DNA from: Candidatus Thorarchaeota archaeon
Lineage (GTDB): Archaea; Asgardarchaeota; Thorarchaeia; Thorarchaeales; Thorarchaeaceae
DNA: 64,000 bases
Assembly (NCBI GenBank): GCA_013388835.1
Contig: JACAEL010000055.1
Span: 1-64,000, forward strand
Direction: 5' to 3'
This document shows, piece by piece, positions 28,089-35,300 of the stretch. Within the stretch, counting starts at the first letter, position 1. Each line of letters opens with the position of its first letter. Position numbers and translations under genes: made by a program. The notes under the pieces were generated by a model. It made no database searches. It saw nothing but the letters and a program-made list of their open reading frames with translations, and was not told where the DNA came from.

Positions 28089-28224
28089 GCCTCGGTGGCC
28101 AAGTGGTTACGGCGTCTGTCTCGTAAACAGAAGAACGTTGGCTGATTCCCAGCCCTCGGTCGAATCGCGGGTTCAAAAGACTGCATGACTCGCATGTGGT
28201 CGGAATGTCCCGCCCGGGGCTCCA
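28089..28224 (+). tRNA. tRNA-Thr(CGT) with two introns (variable region and T-loop)
   Basis: Acceptor GCCTCGG pairs with CCGGGGC (28214-28220), then T and an encoded CCA. The anticodon stem TCTGT/ACAGA encloses CTCGTAA (anticodon CGT, 28122-28124). The variable region (28132-28166) is 35 nt instead of 5 and contains GGCTG/CAGCC. The T-stem GCGGG/CCCGC encloses a 37-nt loop (28172-28208) with a 9-bp stem, GACTGCATG/CATGTGGTC, including wobbles. Removing ~30 nt from each leaves 73 nt. Splice sites are approximate. Confidence 0.87.
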
Positions 28225-29782: not shown

Positions 29783-29872
29783 GACCTTCTCGTCATGGTG
29801 TGCAAGAAGTGCCACTCCATAGCAGATGCGGGAAGAGGCAGGATGAAGTATGTCAGACCGCCACTGAAGTGA
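29783..29872 (+). pseudogene. Remnant of the HNH endonuclease gene (last ~29 codons)
   Basis: These 90 bp match the 3' end of the intact HNH gene at 34008-34097 in the same frame up to the stop codon (DLLVMVCKKCHSIADA then GRGRMKYVRPPLK). Nothing of the upstream HNH gene remains; the match starts abruptly next to the MFS promoter. It is the left copy of a 170-bp direct repeat. Confidence 0.85.
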
Positions 29873-29914
29873 ATGCGCCGTGAGACTGACGTGTAAGCAG
29901 TCAGGGATTTGTGA

Positions 29915-29952
29915 TGGTGCGGAAGGCTAGATTTGAACTCGCGAATCCCTAC
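29915..29952 (-). pseudogene. 3' fragment of tRNA-Leu (attachment-site remnant)
   Basis: Matches the CCA, acceptor, T-arm and part of the variable arm of the intact tRNA-Leu at 34140-34177. Two substitutions in the acceptor strand (gcggaaggctag versus gcggagggcgag) would weaken pairing, and the 5' two-thirds of the tRNA is missing, so it cannot be functional. Confidence 0.8.
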
Positions 29953-29974
29953 AACCATTCTTCGTGAGCAGATA

Positions 29975-29995
29975 CACACTTGCGGAGGAAGTGTG
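29975..29995. repeat. Hairpin near the left end of the element
   Basis: CACACTT-gcggagg-AAGTGTG is a perfect 7-bp stem just inside the left boundary. It could be regulatory or part of a replication origin. Confidence 0.4.
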
Positions 29996-30124
29996 AATAC
30001 TGAGAGGAAGGCATTCCAAGACACTGGCGATGCTGGATGACAGCTTGGCGAGAGCACTCTGCCAGTCACATCACAACCCGGTGCTGGGCGGAATGAACTC
30101 ACACGAGTCATCACCATCTCGTAT

Positions 30125-30319
30125 GTGCCGGTGGCATTCCTTCTTCGCTGTATAGGAGAACAAAAGGAGACGGATTGTATCGGAATGTGTGAGAGGCAGT
30201 ACCAAGAGGGACTTGAAGAAAGTCTTCGTTCCCTCACAGAGAAGACCTGCCTCGATGATCTGCGTCTCATAATCGAGCGGGAACTCACTATCCCGCTCCC
30301 TTGGAGGTGCTTCACCTGA
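30125..30319 (+). CDS. Possible small protein of the element, unknown function
   Basis: A 64-residue frame with an acidic helical core (QYQEGLEESLRSLTEKTCLDDLRLIIERELT). It overlaps the next small gene by 19 bp, which could reflect coupling. There is no obvious ribosome-binding sequence, so it may not be translated. Confidence 0.35.
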   Translation: MPVAFLLRCIGEQKETDCIGMCERQYQEGLEESLRSLTEKTCLDDLRLIIERELTIPLPWRCFT

Positions 30320-30585
30320 AGACAAGACTGACCCAGTCCAAGAAGGGCAGGTCCTTGCTCCTGACCTTCCATGAGGGCTTCTCAACATACACCATCACTC
30401 TGCCCATGCCATACGCTGTCCGCTTCTTCGCGGAAGGACTCGTCAGCAGCCTTGAGATGCTCCACGAGCAGTCCGATGTGAGGAAGGAACTCGCGAGCAA
30501 GGACGGTGAGAAGGCATTTATCCAAGAGATGATTCGGAAGGCCGCTGGACTCCTCGAACGACTTCTGAAGTGCGAACAGGAATGA
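30301..30585 (+). CDS. Small element-encoded protein of unknown function
   Basis: The 94-residue frame starts at TTG 30301 (or GTG 30307). It has a basic N-terminus, a beta-like stretch (RSLLLTFHEGFSTYTITLPMP) and a long charged C-terminal helix. It ends 6 bp before the primase gene and so is probably its operon partner. It could be an accessory or copy-control protein. No family was recognised. Confidence 0.5.
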   Translation: MEVLHLKTRLTQSKKGRSLLLTFHEGFSTYTITLPMPYAVRFFAEGLVSSLEMLHEQSDVRKELASKDGEKAFIQEMIRKAAGLLERLLKCEQE

Positions 30586-30591
30586 CAGAGG

Positions 30592-31575
30592 ATGAACGAA
30601 ACGGTCGTGCGTTCCCGCTCAGCGCTACTCAGGCAGTACTATGGAGCGGCACAGCTCGGCTGGTTCCACCCAAGGTCGCTTCACTGGGCCAAGGTAGTGA
30701 CCGAAGACGGCTTCTGGCGATGGATCCGTTCGGACAGTGGTGTAAGACGCAGACTGCTCAAGAAACCTCCAGTGCACGTGTACCAGACAGTTCTCAGGTT
30801 CAAGACTGACGGGCCACCGCGCGGTTGGAGGAGCACCGGATACCTCCTTGGCGGCCCAGTCCTGTTCGAAACCGACCTCTTTGACAAGAGCGAGCCTCTC
30901 TCCGTCTGGAAGGTTGTTGACTCAATCCACATCATAGATGGACTGGTCGACCTCATGAGGGACCGAGGTGACTACCGGCCAGACTGTATCACCTACAGCG
31001 GTTTCCGCGGCGTGCATGTGATGTTCTCCCAATCTACAACTCCCAAGAGCTTCATTACCTTGGAAGGACAGGACAGCAGACCGAGAGACCTGAGAAATTT
31101 CGTGAGGTCAAGGAAGCATATGGCTCGCTCAGTAGGGTGTTGGTGCAGGGAGTGGGACTGGAAGGTCAGTGCTGACATATGGCGTGTGGCCAGAGTGCCC
31201 TGGAGCATACACGGCAGCTCAGCTCTGCGGGCAATACCTCTGAAACCCCGGTCCACTCCTTCAAGCGTCACGAGGCAACTGCGAGAGGCGAGCCCCTTCA
31301 GCTTCACCTCATCAATCCACGTGAGGACTAAACGACACATCCCGCCATTCGTCTTTGTGGACGGTGAGACCTACGGCCCCTACGGAAAGGGATGGACGAC
31401 CAGACTGCCCATTGCCGTGGCACTGCACCTGATCTGGCAGGACCTAGCGAGACCTCGGGAGGCAGGTCCGCGAAGGACATCGACTTGGTTCGAGAGAGGC
31501 TGGCAGGTGTTGTTCCATGCATCTGCGGAGGCGCGTCATGAGCACGATATGTCTGCAGGGAGGTCATCAGGATGA
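30592..31575 (+). CDS. PriS-family archaeo-eukaryotic primase of the element
   Basis: Synthesises primers (and possibly DNA) for replication. The 327 residues show the PriS motif order: an N-terminal LLRQYYGAAQLGWFHPRS helix, a metal-binding acid pair in LFETDLFD (E93/D95/D98), the nucleotide-binding YSGFRGVHVMFS (135-146), and DWKVSADIWRVARVPWSIHG (189-208), which matches the third-Asp/RLIRLPGSLHG motif of PriS. The zinc-knuckle cysteines of cellular PriS were not seen. Its stop overlaps the next gene's ATG (ATGA). It is probably an element replicase, since it lies between attachment-like repeats. Confidence 0.8.
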   Translation: MNETVVRSRSALLRQYYGAAQLGWFHPRSLHWAKVVTEDGFWRWIRSDSGVRRRLLKKPPVHVYQTVLRFKTDGPPRGWRSTGYLLGGPVLFETDLFDKSEPLSVWKVVDSIHIIDGLVDLMRDRGDYRPDCITYSGFRGVHVMFSQSTTPKSFITLEGQDSRPRDLRNFVRSRKHMARSVGCWCREWDWKVSADIWRVARVPWSIHGSSALRAIPLKPRSTPSSVTRQLREASPFSFTSSIHVRTKRHIPPFVFVDGETYGPYGKGWTTRLPIAVALHLIWQDLARPREAGPRRTSTWFERGWQVLFHASAEARHEHDMSAGRSSG

Positions 31576-33269
31576 CATCCGTGTGCCCGTGCGGGCGTTC
31601 ATGCGGCAGCTGCGTCTACGGACACCTCTGTGGAGGATGTCTTGAAGAGGGCTGCATCCATGTGAGGGCAGAGCGACACGAGTCGGTATTGCATCGCACC
31701 AAGTGTCTGTTCTGCTCGAAGAAGAGGCTGGAGGGGCCATGCTCGCACGGTCCACTTGTGCCACCCAAGGAGTTTGAGCTTGTCAGTCCACAGGTGCTTG
31801 AGAACAACGTTGACGAGTGGAGCAGGCTTCGTGTGGACTACTCAGACCAGCCAGAACAACCGGACTGGCCGCTATTGGTCCCCGAAGTGTCAGATGTGAC
31901 CGAAACGACGTCGCGCCTTGGTGTGAATCTGGACGAGGGACGATGGAGTCTTGGCACATGGAGAGCGATAGCTTGGGACATGACGGGGTACTTGTTCGAC
32001 AGAGTACACGGGGCACCATGGGTCAGGAAGTCTTCACCCGAAGAGAACAACTGGTACTATCTTACGAAACGACATGCGGGACGGATTGATGACCTCATCT
32101 TCGTTGACAGGTTGCCGGACCAGCTGGCGATGCAGACCCCGCCCTCGGGAGCTATCGCGGAGTATCTGAACCGGCTCTTCAGCTGCCAATGGAGCCTCTT
32201 CGCCGACAAGAAGCCCAGACTGTGGCTGCTGACTCACGGTCATCCGAGCTATGTTGACTGGCCACCAGCATGGCACTGGAACCTCGGCATTCGGATGCTT
32301 GCCAGTCTCATCTCCTATGTTGGACCGGCGGTTTCAGACATGCTTCTCTCGCCGGAAGGCGTATGGTATCCAGACAGGAGTGGCAAGACTGACGGCCCAA
32401 TTCCTGCACCCTACGTCTTCGCAGGTGACGACTCTAGGCTGGTGTTCTCAGAGTACGCAGAGATGCACTGGAGCAGTTTCCCGGGCATCATACCGTTCGT
32501 CCCCGGTGCAGACACCGCCCAACTGTCTTGGTTTGCCACGCAACTAGTAGACTTCGGCTATGTCACTCTAGCACTGGACGCACTGAATACAATCGCCCAC
32601 GAGAACTTCGCGGGACTGCCTGAGGCCGTGCAGTGCCTGAGACGTGCCGGGGCACAACATGTCATAGTCTATGGTCCTTGGCCTCTCCATCCTCCGTCCA
32701 GCTTCGTCCCTCTTCGGAACGTCACCTATATTCCGTCTGCCCACCATATGGACATGACCGATGCGCCTGCAAGGTTCTGGAGAAAGCAAACTGAAACGCA
32801 GAAGGAGGGGGAGAGATGGCAACAGATTCCCAACTACAGGACCACACCGCTCAGGGAGATAGCTCATCGTGATGACTTGGAGTTCTGTTCATGTCCCGCA
32901 TGCAAGGCGGCAATGACTCGAGAGGGGAGTCCAGTCAGCATCTGGCGATGGGGTCACCTTCTGCAGGCCGGACTGAGATGGCAGAAACGCTCCAAGTCCG
33001 CAAGGGAGGAGGCAGTTTCCGAATCGGCTGAGGAAACCCGCCTCTGGTATCAGGGACCTTCATACACAGTCTTCAGGCGTTGTCTGACCTACCCCTCAGA
33101 GTCACGCCATGTGTGCCGCGATGAATACTTCGACACTATCAGGGTCGCCGAAACGAGAATGGATGTGGTGTACCCAGATGGCTGGACAGCTCTGCCAGAG
33201 CAAATCCGTTGGACTGGTTGGAGAGGAGGACACGAATGGCAGTCCGACTTCCCGCGACTGGGGGACTGA
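31572..33269 (+). CDS. Cys-rich protein of unknown function, possibly TGT/DpdA-like
   Basis: The 565-residue protein starts with a cysteine cluster: CPCGRSCGSCVYGHLCGGC, then EEGC, a His-rich stretch and CLFC (residues ~5-50), similar in style to DUF3795-type zinc or iron-sulfur domains. The middle (~260-400) alternates strands and helices like a TIM barrel (GIIPFVPGADTAQLSWFATQL; AGAQHVIVYGPWPL). Near residue 440 is CSCPAC followed ~19 residues later by His, resembling the CxCxxC...H zinc site of tRNA-guanine transglycosylases and their DNA-modifying DpdA relatives. This assignment is tentative. The gene overlaps the primase gene by 4 bp and precedes the HNH gene by 3 bp. Confidence 0.6.
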   Translation: MTSVCPCGRSCGSCVYGHLCGGCLEEGCIHVRAERHESVLHRTKCLFCSKKRLEGPCSHGPLVPPKEFELVSPQVLENNVDEWSRLRVDYSDQPEQPDWPLLVPEVSDVTETTSRLGVNLDEGRWSLGTWRAIAWDMTGYLFDRVHGAPWVRKSSPEENNWYYLTKRHAGRIDDLIFVDRLPDQLAMQTPPSGAIAEYLNRLFSCQWSLFADKKPRLWLLTHGHPSYVDWPPAWHWNLGIRMLASLISYVGPAVSDMLLSPEGVWYPDRSGKTDGPIPAPYVFAGDDSRLVFSEYAEMHWSSFPGIIPFVPGADTAQLSWFATQLVDFGYVTLALDALNTIAHENFAGLPEAVQCLRRAGAQHVIVYGPWPLHPPSSFVPLRNVTYIPSAHHMDMTDAPARFWRKQTETQKEGERWQQIPNYRTTPLREIAHRDDLEFCSCPACKAAMTREGSPVSIWRWGHLLQAGLRWQKRSKSAREEAVSESAEETRLWYQGPSYTVFRRCLTYPSESRHVCRDEYFDTIRVAETRMDVVYPDGWTALPEQIRWTGWRGGHEWQSDFPRLGD

Positions 33270-33272
33270 GAG

Positions 33273-34097
33273 TTGTCTGGTGGGTCCCGTGCGGATCCGT
33301 ACTATCAGAGAAACCCACCAAAAAAGAGCGCCGCGCCAAGTGCTTCCGAGAAAGGGGCGAAGAAGCGGGGCAGGAAACCGAACTTCGAGGAGGTGAAGAG
33401 ACTCTACTTCGACGAGGGTTTGTCGATACCTGCGGTAGCAGAAGCGCTAGACGTCTCACGATACTCTGTCGTGGAGGTCTTCAAGGAACACGGTCTGCAG
33501 GCACGCAGGAGGCAGTACACCGACCAAGATGTCAAGGACCTCTATGACAAAGGACTGACACAACAGCAGGTGGCCGACCACTTCAAGATTTCATTCCAGT
33601 CGGTCATTGAGATATTCAAGAGAAACGGGTGGAAGGCCAGACCTCTGCTAAAGACCCCGATTGACAGAACTCTTGAGTTGTACAGACAAGGCTACACCCA
33701 GAAGGAGATGGCTGAGATACTGGGGGTCTCTCCTGCAGCTGTCTGGCAGTTGCTCAACAAGATGGGGTTGGTGTCCGCCCGAAACAAGGACTGGAAGATG
33801 CGAGAGGCATCCAATCGAGCCATAGAATACGAGAAGGGCAGGGAATGGAGACGCAAGAGGAAAGAGATTCATGAACGTGACAACCATACGTGTCAAGGAT
33901 GTGGACGCAGCCCTGACAAGGTGAACGGTGTTAGGCTTGCTGTGCACCACATAGTACCTCTTGCTCAATGGATCTACGAAGGACGTGACCCGAGTGAGTA
34001 TCCTGATGACCTTCTTGTCACGGTGTGCAAGAAGTGCCACTCCATAGCAGATGCGGGAAGAGGCAGGATGAAGTATGTCAGACCGCCACTGAAGTGA
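33273..34097 (+). CDS. HNH endonuclease with three N-terminal helix-turn-helix repeats
   Basis: The 274 residues begin with a basic, Ser/Lys-rich tail (~1-34). Three HTH repeats of ~45 residues follow (GLSIPAVAEALDVSRYSVVEV; GLTQQQVADHFKISFQSVIEI; GYTQKEMAEILGVSPAAVWQL), then an HNH domain: CQGCG, LAVHHIVPL and VTVCKKCHS with the two zinc CxxC pairs. The HTH repeats imply recognition of a specific site. The start is TTG 33273, 3 bp after the previous gene. Its last 90 bp recur at 29783-29872. It could serve in homing, restriction or element mobilisation. Confidence 0.88.
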   Translation: MSGGSRADPYYQRNPPKKSAAPSASEKGAKKRGRKPNFEEVKRLYFDEGLSIPAVAEALDVSRYSVVEVFKEHGLQARRRQYTDQDVKDLYDKGLTQQQVADHFKISFQSVIEIFKRNGWKARPLLKTPIDRTLELYRQGYTQKEMAEILGVSPAAVWQLLNKMGLVSARNKDWKMREASNRAIEYEKGREWRRKRKEIHERDNHTCQGCGRSPDKVNGVRLAVHHIVPLAQWIYEGRDPSEYPDDLLVTVCKKCHSIADAGRGRMKYVRPPLK

Positions 34098-34177
34098 ATG
34101 CGCCGTGAAACTGACGTGTAAGCGGTCAGGGATTTGTGATGGTGCGGAGGGCGAGATTTGAACTCGCGAATCCCTAC
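34008..34177. repeat. Right copy of 170-bp direct repeat (HNH 3' end plus tRNA-Leu 3' end)
   Basis: The counterpart of 29783-29952, here continuous with the complete HNH gene on the left and the complete tRNA-Leu gene on the right. About six substitutions separate the copies. Confidence 0.85.
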
Positions 34178-34290
34178 GGAACTTCCCGCCGCGCAAGTGA
34201 CTTGGAGCGGCCTAGGGACCTCAACCCGTAGCGGTCTTACCAACCGAAGCTGGTCAGCTTACGCCTTTGACCTGGCTTGGCAACCTCCGC
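34140..34290 (-). tRNA. tRNA-Leu(GAG) with two introns; attachment site of the element
   Basis: On the minus strand, acceptor GCGGAGG (34284-34290) pairs with CCTCCGC, then A and CCA. The anticodon loop TTGAGGT gives GAG (34220-34222). The anticodon stem TAGGG/CCCTA is interrupted after its second base by ~32 nt (about 34228-34259) containing ACCAG/TTGGT. A second insertion of ~28-30 nt (within about 34183-34212) between the anticodon stem and variable arm contains GCCGC/GCGGC and CAAGT/ACTTG stems. The T-arm GCGAG-TTCAAAT-CTCGC is uninterrupted. Removal leaves ~88 nt, normal for Leu. Confidence 0.85.
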
Positions 34291-34534
34291 ATGGCATGGT
34301 AGTAGCAGGAGCACCTGTAGTCGGCAGTGAATCTCTTTTTACCTTTTCGGGCGGAGTGGTTTCTCTGTACCGAGTCACGACAGGACTCTGACGTTCTTGT
34401 AGCATATAGAAGAGTCGATGAGCGAGTCCCTGCGGCGTTACGTCTTGGAATGAATCGTACTCGAGATGGGGAGAACGAGAGGCGATCCATGCGATTCGAG
34501 TGCAGCTTATATTGGACCGACATGACAGACCGAT

Positions 34535-34783
34535 GTGAAAGCGACACGCAGGACGAGGGCATGGGATAGAGTCAGACTGCGGTTTGTCGATGTGTTCGCC
34601 GATAGGAATCCCGACTTCTCTATGCCATGCGCCCATTGCAGGTTCTACGATGCCACATCGAGACAGTGCAGAGGTGTCGGTTCTGCCTACTACACGAGGA
34701 GAGTACCATTCGACGACTTCATTCCCAGAGCGGACGAGTGCACTGTGCGCCTTCCACCCGAACTGACATCGTACATCCAGTAA
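34535..34783 (+). CDS. Possible small Cys-containing protein of unknown function
   Basis: The 82-residue frame starts at GTG. It contains CAHCRFYDATSRQC and a later ADEC, which could bind zinc or an iron-sulfur cluster. The sequence around the cysteines looks constrained, while the N-terminal ~25 residues are basic. A longer minus-strand frame over the same bases looks like noise. The start and reality of the gene are uncertain. Confidence 0.4.
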   Translation: MKATRRTRAWDRVRLRFVDVFADRNPDFSMPCAHCRFYDATSRQCRGVGSAYYTRRVPFDDFIPRADECTVRLPPELTSYIQ

Positions 34784-35300
34784 TGTCATTCAGTCAGCGA
34801 TGCGCACGGGCTTGGACGCAGAGCATAATAGAAGCTCTAGAAGTGATCACAAGAGTGGTTCGATGATGTGGACCTGACCAGTCATTGTACAAGTGAGCCA
34901 CATCCAGTCCAAAGGCATCGGCCTCACTGACAGTTACGGACAGAGGCAACATGAACGTCTTAGAAAGGGACCCGCCCGGGAACAATGAGTGAGGGGGTGT
35001 GGCGTTAGGGCGAGTCCCTGGGTTTGGGTAGAGGTAGTTCCGGGGAAACAGCAGATTGTCGATGACTTATCGGCATCTGCCGATCATGGATTCGGGAGTG
35101 AGTACTGATTGTGCAATTTAAGAACAACCAGAGGATAGGATTCAGTCTGGAAGGCCACGGGAGATTCATTCCGCATGGAGGGCGGCGGAGGACCGCACAT
35201 CAGCATGTTAGGTCAGTTCATCAGCATGGTCAAGCTGCGAAGGATATGTATAAAGGAGAATCCATGCAGGTTGGCACCGTCAGTTGAGGCGAAAGGATGC
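34784..35300. other. Intergenic stretch with potential RNA structure
   Basis: About 515 bp without a convincing frame. It contains an imperfect long hairpin (AGGGAC-cc-GCCC...GGGC-ga-GTCCCT, 34966-35019) and a perfect 6-bp hairpin, ATCGGC-atct-GCCGAT (35069-35084). A TATA-like tatgtataaagg near 35244-35255 is the likely promoter of the oxidoreductase gene. Confidence 0.4.

Follow-up and report, generated by a model that had tools for sequence, protein, structure and literature searches.

The element beside tRNA-Leu

The DNA analysed here (the window) is a stretch of 64,000 nucleotides from a Candidatus Thorarchaeota archaeon. At the 3′ end of an intron-containing tRNA-Leu gene it holds four co-directional ORFs enclosed by two direct repeats (Table 1). 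The parts follow one another in the order left end, promoter-like box, structured leader, small ORF, PriS-like primase, 565-aa protein, HTH-HNH nuclease and target copy. The G+C content of the element is 56%, versus 53.7 ± 1.0% for 4.2-kb segments of the 64-kb sequence. An earlier note, made from the sequence alone, had described a trio of genes (primase, Cys-rich protein and HNH endonuclease); all three are real, but the small ORF and the structured leader had been overlooked.

Table 1. Positions of the element, its parts and its target in the window
Feature	Position	Strand	Remarks
Left direct repeat	29783..29952	.	HNH 3′ remnant, 3′ UTR and displaced tRNA-Leu 3′ fragment
Element unit, left end to target copy	29953..34177	+	4225 bp, from repeat spacing
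Promoter-like AGGAGNACAAAAGG motif	30154..30168	+	~25 nt before leader RNA; common to L054, L056 and L060
Conserved structured leader (model R1)	30186..30305	+	Covariation over 8 loci
Small ORF, 94 aa	30301..30585	+	Conserved ahead of primase
PriS-type archaeo-eukaryotic primase (predicted)	30592..31575	+	hhalign, PDB and motif comparison
565-aa protein	31572..33269	+	Cys-rich N-terminus, probable TIM barrel, CxCxxC...H knuckle
HNH endonuclease	33273..34097	+	Three HTH repeats, conserved N-terminal SGGSxxDPYY; Pfam
Right direct repeat	34008..34177	.	HNH 3′ end and 38-nt tRNA-Leu 3′ end
Intact tRNA-Leu target gene	34140..34290	-	Intron-containing, probable anticodon GAG

The repeats had been reported as gap-free copies of some 170 bp spaced by 4225 bp. 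This is what we found: the copies are identical at 164 of 170 positions (96%) and form the sole long direct repeat in a scan of 27-37 kb. The right copy indeed lies in the intact tRNA gene, and the left one consists of a remnant of the last 29 HNH codons (29783-29869) and, at its other end, a 38-nt displaced tRNA fragment with two substitutions (29915-29952). The tRNA-Leu end is thus duplicated as a direct repeat while the intact gene is kept, an arrangement that supports the previously proposed site-specific insertion beside a tRNA, next to a decayed earlier copy. A DDE-type or other DNA transposon was considered and rejected, as neither inverted repeats of ≥20 bp (in 27-37 kb) nor a transposase catalytic domain (in the element ORFs, by Pfam) could be found.

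The target gene is missed by default ARAGORN and called Val(GAC) by its intron-aware mode. We set this call aside after aligning the gene with the remaining tRNA-Leu genes of its genome: it reads as a tRNA-Leu, and its anticodon is most likely GAG. A further Rfam tRNA match at 28089-28161 (+), between thiL and an MFS gene, has no ARAGORN call and resembles an interrupted tRNA-Thr(CGT).

In four relatives (G004, G008, G015 and G018) the thiL - tRNA-Leu(GAG) - oxidoreductase locus is present without the element, though the orientation of the tRNA differs from that in the window. Empty sites of the kind sought by the earlier note therefore exist, and relatives that carry the gene trio have it at other targets, not at this locus without flanking repeats. 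Compared with the corresponding loci (L171, L169, L170 and L186), window region 34140-35200 contains a local inversion of the segment comprising tRNA-Leu and ORF 34535-34783. Judging from G006, the sequence comparison suggests that it was the host genome in which this segment flipped.

Leader, small ORF and encoded proteins

The AGGAGNACAAAAGG motif may act as a promoter. In an alignment of eight loci the leader shows compensatory double changes in 8 of the 12 consensus pairs, and it matches no known RNA family in Rfam. The leader serves to mark the left end of the element, and a covariance-model search for it in 59 genomes, with the eight training loci counted apart, produced 12 additional matches. 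Seven of them are located by nrdD (whole or fragmentary) or rpl10e: four beside nrdD or an nrdD fragment and three ~170 bp upstream of rpl10e. In G003, a segment made up of the leader and the initial ~36 codons of the small ORF is fused directly to the nrdD stop. In two genomes (loci L055 and L056), a divergent gene of 441-467 aa that belongs to no known family separates the leader of the element from that of rpl10e or glyA. The small ORF matched no known family and precedes the primase in all elements for which the left half is available; in the window it has CTG where the aligned start of its homologs is ATG.

The assignment of the next gene to PriS-type primases, already made in the earlier note, holds: based on sequence homology, the protein is a divergent PriS. 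It aligns over nearly its full length with cellular Asgard PriS (hhalign 97.7%, E=2e-12; unrelated controls, P 0.08-0.8) and also matches PDB entry 1zt2 (E=1.6e-5). The motifs of this archaeo-eukaryotic primase (AEP) family (DxD, SxRGxH and hD) accompany the collinear PriS homology, motif I being FDxD in relatives and FETD in the window, with Glu replacing the first Asp. The AlphaFold model of the primase (pLDDT 43) was too weak for fold identification.

The 565-aa protein probably contains a TIM barrel. Searches of Pfam, NCBIfam, PHROGs and PDB sequences returned nothing convincing for its family. Parts of residues 309-472 align with three TGT-type profiles at P 0.006-0.02 (controls 0.3-0.85), with an hhalign probability of only 2-6%, and two of these three alignments run through the CxCxxC knuckle. 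The weak similarity to the TGT/DpdA superfamily may thus serve as a lead only. Its AlphaFold model (pLDDT 46) was likewise too weak to define a fold, and Foldseek returned generic TIM barrels only (best E 0.06).

HNH endonuclease and its link to the target

According to Pfam, the endonuclease combines an HNH domain (PF01844) with three HTH stretches, and one homolog, that of G018, contains NUMOD3. An HNH domain joined to modular DNA-binding or NUMOD motifs is the make-up of HNH homing endonucleases. The HNH stop is convergent with, and 0-45 bp away from, the end of a conserved gene: tRNA-Leu in the host genome (G000), nrdD in four genomes (G002, G018, G020 and G027), tRNA-Asn in G014 (judged by eye) and aIF2beta in G033. 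At nrdD in G020 and G027, and at the tRNA-Asn and aIF2beta ends, the HNH gene is present without the rest of the module. All four HNHs of nrdD sites have a C-terminal NGRGE...RQ tail in common, and the two HNHs of rpl10e sites share 65% identity, as against 24-40% with the other HNHs. As judged by these similarities, the sequence class of the HNH tracks the target gene end. Moreover, the HNH gene occupies the att-proximal place, where an integrase gene normally sits. This position and the association with the target lend support to the earlier suggestion that the element is mobilised by its HNH enzyme. Longer HTH-HNH proteins with two HNH-like domains are encoded near tRNA-Leu(CAG) (L060 632-2443 and L160 7216-8430); of these, that of G032 has many HTH repeats.

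Distribution of the family

The 565-aa protein was detected in 8 of 228 genomes of the Asgard phylum, all of them in the window's own family; among the named records with this protein, one is labelled Lokiarchaeota, one 'archaeon', and the remainder are Thorarchaeota MAGs. No relatives of the 565-aa protein or the primase were found in IMG/VR, and none of the 565-aa protein in phage and plasmid collections. All genomes compared are MAGs. The complete order (small ORF, primase, 565-aa protein, HNH) is present in the host genome, G007, G017 and G025, and partial, decayed or shortened forms are present in G002, G005, G015, G018 and G032, the last with an internal deletion that joins the small ORF to the C-terminus of the 565-aa protein. 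The gene set represents a genuine family, and in the searched genomes it occurs in a single Asgard family (Thorarchaeota) only. A CRISPR-like array lies immediately upstream of the shortened element in G002 (L058 1-640).

Targets and displaced gene ends

The tRNA named as the target in the earlier note is that of the window; further targets are the 3′ ends of nrdD and the promoter of rpl10e. The nrdD 3′ end is abutted by the element or the 565-aa gene in G002, G018 and G015, and the rpl10e leader/promoter is the element site in G007 and G017. Displaced fragments of the nrdD 3′ end number seven in G005 (contig C133), three in G027 and two each in G017 and the host genome; they occur alongside intact nrdD or with its island. 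Two of the G027 copies follow one another, and each of them adjoins an HNH remnant. Most of the fragments in G005, G016, G017 and G027 begin ~70 bp before the stop codon. Since most share this one start, insertion at nrdD is site-specific; the displaced copy in the host genome is longer than the ~70-bp copies elsewhere. Fragments of tRNA-Leu in arrays have at least three boundaries (22, about 32 and 38 nt), and therefore several systems may use that tRNA. For the glyA-leader repeats of G025 (L056), no clean target could be defined.

Islands at nrdD and tRNA-Leu contain type I and II restriction-modification, GajA/OLD-like and other defence-type genes. Two cassette-like arrays in G005 (L195 on C124 and L148 on C133) consist of units of roughly one or two genes, separated by 3′-end fragments of tRNA-Leu or nrdD (6 and 7 copies); both arrays include defence-type genes. 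In the host genome (C74, L147, 7406-8640 and flanks), a decayed duplicate of the nrdD 3′ end lies behind nrdD, and a restriction-modification set (MvaI/BcnI-type nuclease and N6/N4 methylase) lies farther downstream. In G017 (C616, L086), a pAgo gene adjoins a separate copy of the rpl10e leader, after which comes the structured leader of the element.

Recombinases and the mode of insertion

As the earlier note had observed, the element encodes no recombinase: Pfam revealed HTH matches but no recombinase catalytic domain in its ORFs. The host genome is likewise devoid of matches to PF00589 (tyrosine recombinase), as are G002, G015, G016 and G020, whereas all control genomes matched. Among these negative genomes, G000 is 97.6% and G015 98% complete, and G020 is a single contig. 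None of the family members found contains a recombinase.

Considering that the host genome has no PF00589 match, that the HNH gene is att-proximal and that its class follows the target, we favour, and consider somewhat probable, an HNH-directed insertion of small primase-encoding elements at gene ends, the joining being left to host repair. Replication or maintenance of an excised form, probably a circle, would most likely be the task of the primase, the small ORF and the 565-aa protein. The HNH, a homing-type enzyme with an exchangeable DNA-binding part, would most likely recognise and cut the target near the conserved gene end, and the copy of that end carried by the element would permit joining by host repair. 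The carried end would then restore the host gene, and the original end would remain as a displaced direct repeat. Several points speak against such HNH-directed insertion. Classical homing depends on homology flanking the cut on either side and leaves no long direct repeats; in the arrays at nrdD and tRNA-Leu, many of the cassette units have neither HNH nor leader; in G017 and G025 the HNH is not immediately beside a recognisable target copy; and the differing boundaries of the tRNA-Leu fragments and the tyrosine recombinases encoded in other genomes also count against it.

As regards the excised form, the element contig of G007 has a 47-bp terminal overlap, and its last 141 bp are identical to the end of the contig that carries rpl10e, which corresponds to the promoter region of that gene. 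We downgraded the circular plasmid that this overlap might indicate, because the 141-bp identity is better explained as a k=141 repeat of the assembly graph at rpl10e. Of the minimal replicon family envisaged in the earlier note, the recurrent compact family stands, and the replicon itself is plausible.

Alternatively, the family could represent conventional integrase-type islands. Circles with att sites would then be inserted at gene ends by a tyrosine or serine recombinase that is either provided in trans or has meanwhile been lost, and the HNH would be a passenger homing endonuclease. tRNA 3′ ends and fixed boundaries are classic integrase sites, some of the tRNA-Leu fragments break in the T-loop (22 nt), and 10 of the 15 genomes checked encode tyrosine recombinases elsewhere. 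We regard this explanation as rather unlikely, as PF00589 is missing from four genomes that carry the element, its HNH or nrdD arrays (G000, G015, G020 and G016), and the absence of recombinases from the members and the placement and target-dependent class of the HNH also count against it. Plain homologous recombination would require a plasmid with a captured gene end to recombine with the chromosome or a decayed older copy (Campbell insertion), the HNH being merely stimulatory or irrelevant. The 170-bp repeat of the window, which includes element sequence, and the repeat of at least 141 bp in G007 are long enough for this, but the ~70-bp nrdD boundary shared by four genomes suggests a defined cut point, which makes such an origin improbable. 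Finally, an assembly artefact or chance duplication is scarcely credible even for a fragmented MAG of 125 contigs, because six mismatches separate the two 170-bp copies, the same gene set occurs in separately assembled MAGs and the loci are empty in relatives.

Relation to known systems

The family resembles several known systems in part. Free-standing homing endonuclease genes, which include HNH enzymes with NUMOD motifs, spread by intronless homing. They share with the element the HNH fold, modular DNA-binding parts (NUMOD3 in one member) and conserved target genes, but here the HNH resides within a four-gene element and the gene end is duplicated rather than purely converted. Archaeal plasmids and proviruses integrated at tRNA genes carry an SSV/pNOB8-type integrase. 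Like them, the element is small, is inserted at a tRNA 3′ end with restoration of the gene and is flanked by direct repeats; unlike them, it has no integrase gene, and nrdD and rpl10e are used too. The archaeal plasmids pRN1 and pTN2 also encode a primase of archaeo-eukaryotic type on a small mobile element, whereas the primase of the present element is stand-alone, short, PriS-like and not accompanied by a helicase, and the other genes are unrelated. Tn7-like transposons target the 3′ end of a conserved gene (attTn7) through the HTH protein TnsD, and Pfam TnsD is weakly matched through the HTH repeats of the HNH protein; however, the element has no transposase, and the gene end is duplicated and replaced.

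Another comparable system is HeimM2 of Ca. Heimdallarchaeum, whose homing endonuclease its authors suggest to have been co-opted for site-specific integration (Wu et al. 2022, PMC8813620). Both are small Asgard elements that bear a homing endonuclease and are inserted beside conserved RNA genes. HeimM2 differs in its size (8 kb), in its location between 16S rRNA and tRNA-Arg and in its endonuclease, a homolog of rRNA self-splicing homing endonucleases; moreover, passages on HeimM2 in that paper describe an LRR protein and mention no primase (PMC8813620), whereas the window element encodes one. Our literature search found no description of the present gene set; it was incomplete for Asgard mobile elements, so an earlier description is possible.

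Tentatively, these elements may constitute a separate class of mobile elements without a recombinase, in which a modular HNH chooses and breaks the site, the primase and leader support copying and the carried gene end permits harmless entry into essential genes, and in which non-autonomous cassettes with the same ends build Asgard defence islands. Tyrosine or serine integrases are usually held responsible for site-specific integration at gene ends. The compact family described here integrates there repeatedly with no integrase gene aboard and none of the tyrosine class detected in several hosts, and its homing-type nuclease varies together with the site. If HNH-directed insertion is true, it would show a route from homing endonucleases to integration systems, would offer a gene-end insertion module and would help to explain the defence-gene islands of Asgard archaea at nrdD, tRNA-Leu and rpl10e.
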